NCBI RefSeq assembly: GCF_000376225.1
Contig: NZ_AQXL01000108.1
Coordinates: 1 to 40,744 of the forward strand
DNA length: 40,744 bases
Direction: 5' to 3'
Origin: Effusibacillus pohliae DSM 22757
GTDB lineage: Bacteria > Bacillota > Bacilli > Tumebacillales > Effusibacillaceae
In this document: positions 10,806-11,927 of the stretch, one piece after another
Layout of the letters: the number at the start of each line of letters is the position of its first letter
How positions within the stretch are numbered: position 1 is the first letter of the stretch
Notes under the pieces: model-generated
Database searches by the model: none
What the model was told of the DNA's origin: nothing
Seen by the model: the letters and a program-made list of their open reading frames with translations, nothing else
Position numbers and translations under genes: made by a program

Positions 10806-11156
10806 TTAGCAGCAGGATCCCGGCTTGCCCGCATCGGTCGCCGTGCGGAAGGAACTGCCGCAACCGCAGGTGGACGATGCGTTCGGGTTGCTGATCTTGA
10901 ACCCGGCTCCCATCAGGGAATCCACATAGTCCACTTCCGCGCCTTGCAAATAGCGGGCGCTCGTCGGGTCGATCACCACTTTTACGCCGTTTTCGGTGAA
11001 TACGTTATCGTCGCTTTTGGCACGATCCAGTGCCATTCCATATGAGAAGCCGCTTCAGCCACCGGATTTGATAAAAATCCGGAGAGCCAGGTCTTCCCCT
11101 TTATCAGCGAGCAAGGTTTTCACTTTGGTTGCCGCTGCTTCGGTCAAGGTTACCAC
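10806..11156 (-). CDS. HesB/IscA-family Fe-S protein with in-frame TGA (selenoprotein)
   Basis: Reading from GTG at 11156 (GGGGAGA upstream) through a TGA at 11055-11057 gives one 116-residue A-type Fe-S carrier/insertion protein. The TGA is codon 34 and falls in '[18 protein letters not shown]', exactly where IscA/HesB proteins have the first of their three conserved cysteines (GGCSGFSY). The other two are present in 'STCGCGSS'. Homology continues in the same frame on both sides, so a frameshift or early stop is unlikely. A hairpin at 11019-11034 fits a bacterial SECIS. Automatic callers will truncate this gene to 10806-11036 from an internal ATG. The peroxiredoxin selenoprotein lies about 110 bp upstream on the same strand. 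Confidence 0.88.
11019..11034 (-). promoter_or_regulatory. SECIS-like hairpin of the HesB-type gene
   Basis: On the minus strand GGCAC-TGGATC-GTGCC forms a stem-loop beginning 20 nt after the TGA. The apical loop contains GG and a U. Distance and position fit the bacterial SECIS bound by SelB. Confidence 0.6.
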
Positions 11157-11264: not shown

Positions 11265-11735
11265 TCAGGACAAGCTTTTCACAAACTCAAGCACTTCTTC
11301 CGCGTGCCCTTTCACTTTGACTTTCCGATAAATCTTGCGGATGATCCCTTGCTTGTCGATCACGAACGTACTGCGTTCGATTCCCATGTACTTTTTGCCG
11401 TACATGTTTTTTTCCACCCACACACCGTACGTTTCCGCCAGTTTATGGTCTGCATCGGACAACAGCAGGAACGGAAGATCGTGTTTAATGGAAAATTTTT
11501 CATGCGATTGGATCGAATCCGGACTGACACCGAGAATCACAGCGTTCGCATCTTCAAAACCTTGAAGATGTGCCTTGAAATCCAAGGCTTCGTTGGTTCA
11601 GCCGGGGGTCGCGTCTTTCGGATAGAAATACAGCACCACAGAGCGTCCGCGAAAATCGGCAACCGACACCCGCTCGCCATTCGTCGCTGGCACGGCAATA
11701 TCGGGAGCGGCTTGTCCCACCTCGACCTGCGCCAT
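11265..11735 (-). CDS. bcp: Bcp/PrxQ-type peroxiredoxin with in-frame TGA (selenoprotein)
   Basis: From the ATG at 11735 (AGGAGGGG upstream) the frame gives 156 residues when the TGA at 11598-11600 is read through as codon 46. The context is 'YFYPKDATPG-TGA-TNEALDF', where Bcp/PrxQ proteins have the peroxidatic cysteine (TPGCT). The rest of the thioredoxin fold follows in frame ('LPFLLLSDADHKLAETYGV', 'GIERSTFVID'). The product has no cysteine at all, and the usual resolving cysteine five residues on is Leu. Without selenocysteine the enzyme would have no reactive residue, which strongly supports recoding. It would reduce hydroperoxides by a 1-Sec mechanism, probably with an external thiol reductant. 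Confidence 0.9.
11549..11570 (-). promoter_or_regulatory. SECIS-like hairpin of the peroxiredoxin gene
   Basis: On the minus strand CATCTTCAA-GGTT-TTGAAGATG is a perfect 9-bp stem with a GGUU loop, beginning 27 nt after the TGA. A GGU-containing apical loop is the usual bacterial SECIS feature. The distance is at the long end of the normal range. Confidence 0.7.
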
Positions 11736-11927
11736 TTTTCATCCCCTCCTCGTCAGATTCTGACATGTGACGTTTGCAAGCAGCCGCAGCCACCGCTCTA
11801 CAAGATTATACCAGATCGCACGCGGCAGGAATTTAAAATCATATATAGAATATTTCAACAATACATGATCTTCCGTTATAACAAGTCTGCTCGACTTGTA
11901 CACTATCCATACAGGGAGGCGCTGGCG

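Follow-up and report, generated by a model that had tools for sequence, protein, structure and literature searches.

The whole stretch of DNA analysed here, called the window, is 40,744 nt of contig NZ_AQXL01000108.1 of Effusibacillus pohliae DSM 22757 and carries a peroxiredoxin gene of the PrxQ (Bcp) type. Judged by its sequence, this gene very probably makes a '1-Sec' PrxQ, in which selenocysteine (Sec) would be inserted SelB-dependently at the in-frame UGA of 11600-11598 and reduced by an outside thiol. The putative Sec codon passes the genomic tests of sister conservation, complete Sec machinery and conserved hairpins. The gene and its codon read as follows.

11265..11735, reverse strand: Sec-PrxQ (Bcp) gene, ATG at 11735, stop TGA at 11267-11265, 156 aa, Sec46, no Cys.
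11598..11600, reverse strand: in-frame UGA, residue 46 (P39-xxx-T43-xx-U46), taken as the Sec codon, in TPGUTNEALDF.
11743..11751, reverse strand: ribosome-binding-site-like GAGGAGGGG, 5' of the PrxQ ATG, by sequence reading.

The window protein scores 156.1 bits with NF006960 (NCBIfam, thioredoxin-dependent thiol peroxidase), above the curated cut-off of 140, and 138.3 bits with Pfam AhpC-TSA (PF00578), and its closest solved sequence is 5enu (E 2.2e-45). The PrxQ/Bcp active site consists of P-x3-T/S-x2-C plus a conserved Arg. It is kept here as P39xxxT43xxU46 and Arg121 (in IERST), Sec replacing Cys. The preliminary description had put a TGA at the peroxidatic position of a Bcp/PrxQ without any Cys or internal resolving residue, and all of this is borne out. 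The 156-residue frame has 0 Cys codons, and the resolving Cys that marks the 2-Cys subtype, at CP+5 or elsewhere, is absent, the +5 position being Leu51.

Two ways in which the Sec assignment might fall had been named, a sequencing error at 11598-11600 and missing Sec machinery, and the genomes answer both. The sister species G002 has a PrxQ (L115) of 86% identity with the identical UGA, an intact 155-residue frame and no Cys. The own genome has selA (629 bits; cut-off 268) on the same contig as selD (417 bits; cut-off 125), selB (402 bits; cut-off 242) and tRNA-Sec with the anticodon TCA (68.5 bits; gathering score 47). SelB is above the cut-off in 4/4 genomes of the genus.

Two further observations concern the machinery genes themselves. 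The selD match (L030, C135:60849-61778) has one internal TGA, and SelD may be a selenoprotein too. The tRNA-Sec gene (L022:1501-1597) lies about 230 nt before a tyrosine-recombinase-like ORF (1830-2849; family by eye).

It is highly improbable that an ordinary Cys PrxQ has become a pseudogene by a recent nonsense mutation, or only looks like one through a sequencing error at the TGA. One error would be enough, TGA being one base from the Cys codons TGT and TGC, but the same TGA and intact frame in the sister would need two identical independent errors. Moreover, TGA stands at the same residue in 18 further Sec-PrxQs, and the resolving Cys is missing as well. Equally little credence is due to near-cognate read-through or a general code change (Trp/Cys) in place of Sec, even with a frame open past the UGA. 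The PrxQ gene itself ends in UGA, so the codon still stops and is not simply reassigned, and the Sec machinery is complete. In the PrxQ, Prx and ErpA genes with a TGA that were read, the codon also stands where the conserved Cys is expected. Decoding as Sec thus stays the preferred reading, and two hairpins follow the codon.

11572..11588, reverse strand: first hairpin, 6-bp stem GCCUUG/CAAGGC (arms 11588-11583 and 11577-11572), loop GAUUU, 9 nt after the UGA, paired bases all conserved in L115.
11549..11570, reverse strand: second hairpin and candidate bacterial SECIS, 9-bp stem CAUCUUCAA/UUGAAGAUG (5' arm 11570-11562, 3' arm 11557-11549), loop GGUU (11561-11558), stem 27 nt and loop 36 nt after the UGA.

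The perfect 9-bp stem with a GGUU loop, described earlier at 27 nt downstream of the UGA, is exact, and the 6-bp hairpin in between is an addition to that account. Bacterial SECIS has an exact UGA-hairpin spacing rule. In the parts of the Sargasso Sea survey available to us, it is a hairpin downstream of the UGA with a small G-containing apical loop (PMC1088965). The predicted GGUU hairpin lies 3' of the UGA with such a loop, its stem conserved in the sister.

In the one sister sequence on which the hairpin conservation rests, the two tandem hairpins match those of the window at 30/30 paired bases. From the UGA to the end of the second hairpin, only positions 11571 (linker) and 11559 (apical loop, GGUU to GGGU) differ. 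Third codon positions that are paired are identical in 10/10 cases, versus 70/118 for the other third positions in conserved codons (one-sided Fisher P = 0.007). Codon identity is 17/20 versus 62/108 (P 0.024) for a stretch picked after the alignment was viewed.

The hairpin region of the window has an MFE z of -3.39, with 1/200 dinucleotide shuffles as good. Amino-acid-preserving codon shuffles (3000 trials) gave P = 0.12 for energy and 0.11 for stem length, its folding being not exceptional among them, and 7/49 Cys homologues have an equally stable hairpin by the same rules. The median hairpin energy is -7.5 kcal/mol in the Sec forms (n=20) versus -3.4 in the Cys forms (n=49), with P 0.02 uncorrected for kinship, and 3/20 Sec forms have no hairpin that meets the rules. 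We rejected folding energy as SECIS proof, since the codon shuffles and the matching Cys homologues make it too weak alone. The predicted hairpins are backed by conservation, not by stability.

From the observed gene, its sequence family, the position and conservation of the UGA, the Sec machinery, the conserved hairpins and the absence of Cys, we infer Sec insertion, the peroxidase chemistry, its reductant and the binding of SelB to one or other hairpin. SelB and Sec-tRNA(UCA) would decode the UGA as Sec, directed by the hairpin(s) just downstream, and the second UGA of the gene would terminate. Sec46 would then attack the peroxide to give a selenenic acid. This would be reduced by an external thiol, either thioredoxin or the cell's low-molecular-weight thiol, in a cycle resembling that of GPx or 1-Cys Prx.

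The reduction would come from outside because the chain has no Cys, and the peroxidatic step should proceed as in other Prxs because the P39xxxT43xxU46 motif and Arg121 are intact. Thioredoxin is a reasonable guess for the reductant, and bacillithiol is the other candidate. An ORF reading by eye as thioredoxin reductase directly precedes selB.

The inserted Sec might serve mainly in a role other than H2O2 removal, with organic hydroperoxides or peroxynitrite as substrate or as a redox sensor. We consider this unlikely, although PrxQ substrates vary and the neighbouring gene encodes an Fe-S carrier, ErpA. G004 and G006, from two further families of the order, also have PrxQ next to ErpA, both with Cys there, which hints at a link to Fe-S repair. 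However, PrxQ and ErpA are neighbours in only 3/14 genomes of the order and lie 30 kb apart in the sister G002, and the peroxidatic motif with its Arg is kept. A peroxidase of the '1-Sec' kind is still the reading that we prefer. The pairs in G004 and G006 suggest that the window gene is at an old place; in the tree, the window and sister PrxQs do not cluster with those of the two genomes (L141, L148).

The ErpA gene has an in-frame UGA of its own.

10806..11156, reverse strand: ErpA-type Fe-S carrier of 116 aa, starting at GTG and ending at TAA, UGA in frame, 108 nt downstream of PrxQ.
11055..11057, reverse strand: the ErpA UGA, replacing the first conserved Cys (SGG-U-SGFSY).
11018..11035, reverse strand: hairpin 3' of the ErpA UGA, UGGCAC/GUGCCA, loop UGGAUC, identical sequence in the sister species G001 and G002.

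The first conserved Cys of ErpA is presumably a cluster ligand. The window ErpA scores 130 bits with NF010147 (cut-off 117), is below the cut-offs of the HesB-type NF038090 and TIGR01911, and keeps the CGC motif. The TGA occurs also in G001 and G002 (84 and 87% identity) and is absent from G003, from G001's second copy and from the other 9 matching genomes of the order. HesB-like selenoproteins are already known from the literature as far as it was accessible, and a search by titles and abstract starts found no selenocysteine ErpA.

The Cys ErpA of G003 (L220, TGC) keeps GGCACTGGATCGCGCC where the Sec relatives have the hairpin GGCACTGGATCGTGCC, which is possibly a fossil or precursor SECIS. 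G001's second, Cys-type ErpA (L130/L230) adjoins an AhpC-like Prx that is 32% identical to the window PrxQ.

Further TGA-bearing redox genes were seen in the genus. Five TGA-flagged Fe-S_biosyn matches were rejected as five selenoproteins, for three of them (the window match, L018 and L021) have their TGA at the conserved Cys site and L019 has Cys there. L018 and L021, on contig C129 of the own genome, are HesB-like with TGA at that site (MEGGUGA, APGUGGFRY). A TPVU Prx with TGA is found in G000, G001 and G002 (L119, L120, L122), TGA redoxins in G001 (L118, L134, L139; TPGUITE, TWUPNC, SWUPYC) and an AhpC-like FVUPTE protein with TGA in G003 (L129). The genus seems rich in selenoproteins.

In the order, PrxQ is found at E <= 1e-30 in 12/14 genomes and has TGA only in the window genome and G002. 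At this threshold, PrxQ occurs in 52 of 299 phylum genomes (55 matches), and 16 of the 52 have TGA. By the named rows around them in the tree, the phylum would be Bacillota and the class Bacilli. All 16 TGA-bearing PrxQs, read one by one, carry it at exactly the peroxidatic residue. A TPGUT DNA pattern has matches in 12 of 398 phylum genomes (7/267 genera), and its reversed control pattern has none among the matches listed for the same genomes. Among 580 relatives in the named genome collection, the best 80 all have Cys; the motif missed 7 of these 80 loci and alignment recovered all 80.

The Cys-free Sec peroxiredoxin of the preliminary description is real and not singular, since 8 of the 20 Sec forms of the phylum, with their N-termini checked, are Cys-free. 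Over the aligned part, 4/58 Cys forms have the peroxidatic Cys alone. Two of the Sec forms, L160 and L161, are distant (34-38% identity) and may be another subfamily. At G008:C41:27024-27913, two close PrxQ matches lie on opposite strands, one starting at query residue 40, and the pair looks like a partial inverted duplication.

COG1225 corresponds to Bcp/PrxQ. In the Sargasso Sea survey, 43 Sec peroxiredoxin sequences bearing the motif TXXU are assigned to COG1225 (PMC1088965). Peroxiredoxins with Sec in a TxxU motif also appear in a 2026 review (PMC13188914). A 2006 table counts 3 selenoproteins in Firmicutes/Bacillales (PMC1794560). Sec-PrxQ is already known as a kind and common in the phylum, and the window gene adds a member.

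The Sec and Cys forms differ at the +5 position. The +5 Cys is present in 0/20 Sec forms versus 49/58 Cys forms of the phylum. Treating the rows as independent, although they are related, gives a Fisher P of 5e-12. Over all 149 rows, including other phyla, the counts are 0/20 versus 85/129. The 78-row phylum set takes from the 80 relatives only the 9 recorded as Bacillota and leaves out L043 (Candidatus Carbobacillus altaicus), a Cys form that lacks the +5 Cys and whose inclusion gives 49/59. Before the trees, L178 and L180 were removed as duplicates of the genes L152 and L153, and L149 because its extracted protein equals that of L140.

For the careful 78-sequence tree, both columns were masked. 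On this tree the Sec label must change 9 times, no fewer than 5 of these on supported branches, and a single Sec clade is rejected (AU p 1e-77). By this tree, the Sec forms do not form one clade. The supported branches give 5 independent pairs, in 1 to 3 of which the resolving Cys goes opposite to Sec and in none the same way; the sign test over them has a median P of 0.25, the pairs being too few for significance. A larger quick tree has 2 forced Sec/Cys changes and 2 such pairs.

Cys forms without the resolving Cys adjoin Sec forms, L198 with L151 and L212 with L154, the latter join under a tool warning of possible long-branch attraction. Therefore, the resolving Cys may have been lost before Sec was gained, or Sec may have reverted. 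The sister G001 has a Cys PrxQ (L116, TPGCTTEACDF) with the resolving Cys, whose gene lies elsewhere. We rejected it as the direct Cys counterpart of the window PrxQ, for in the tree it falls within a different supported group (99/91), and it is probably not a direct orthologue.

We tentatively propose, at somewhat less than even confidence, that Sec and the +5 Cys are mutually exclusive in PrxQ over several Cys/Sec exchanges. Sec would always go with a resolving Cys lost or previously absent, since an outside thiol would reduce the selenenic acid directly and the enzyme would be kinetically trapped by an internal selenylsulfide. If this is true, the window PrxQ offers a clean natural test of what makes selenium in a peroxidase worth its cost to the cell. 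We found no statement of the pattern in the literature searched, including the accessible parts of PMC13188914, PMC1794560 and PMC1088965, which does not imply its absence from print.

The window PrxQ adds a well-supported selenoprotein gene for Bacilli, where the early counts were low. Genes of this type would easily be lost if the UGA were called as a stop. The protein has a single redox-active residue of its kind and no other cysteines, which allows a direct comparison of Sec with Cys, and relatives that use Cys with a resolving Cys make it a useful comparison case. The 0/20 versus 49/58 pattern suggests a testable rule of when a peroxiredoxin can dispense with the resolving Cys.

Among the known systems, the COG1225 TXXU family of the Sargasso Sea has Sec at the TXXU position like the window PrxQ, and its survey predicts bacterial SECIS in all prokaryotic families there (PMC1088965, as far as accessible). 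The window PrxQ differs in being Cys-free and in belonging to a genome whose Sec machinery is named, whereas the available passages of that survey are silent on a resolving Cys. PrxU of Eubacterium acidaminophilum (NF040737; PMC13188914) is a Sec peroxiredoxin too but of another Prx family by score, the window protein reaching 58.3 bits against the curated cut-off of 270.

The Cys-type PrxQ/Bcp proteins (NF006960; 5enu; Bcp chains 5iph and 3gkn) share the sequence family and the active-site motif, with Cys for Sec. In alignments, 5enu and 5iph have Leu at +5 as the window PrxQ does. Other Cys PrxQ forms have a resolving Cys at +5, and some have a distal one, whereas the window PrxQ has none. 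The 1-Cys peroxiredoxins and Sec-GPx have one reactive chalcogen that is reduced by an outside thiol. They would thus resemble the proposed 1-Sec cycle in mechanism but differ from the window PrxQ in sequence family.
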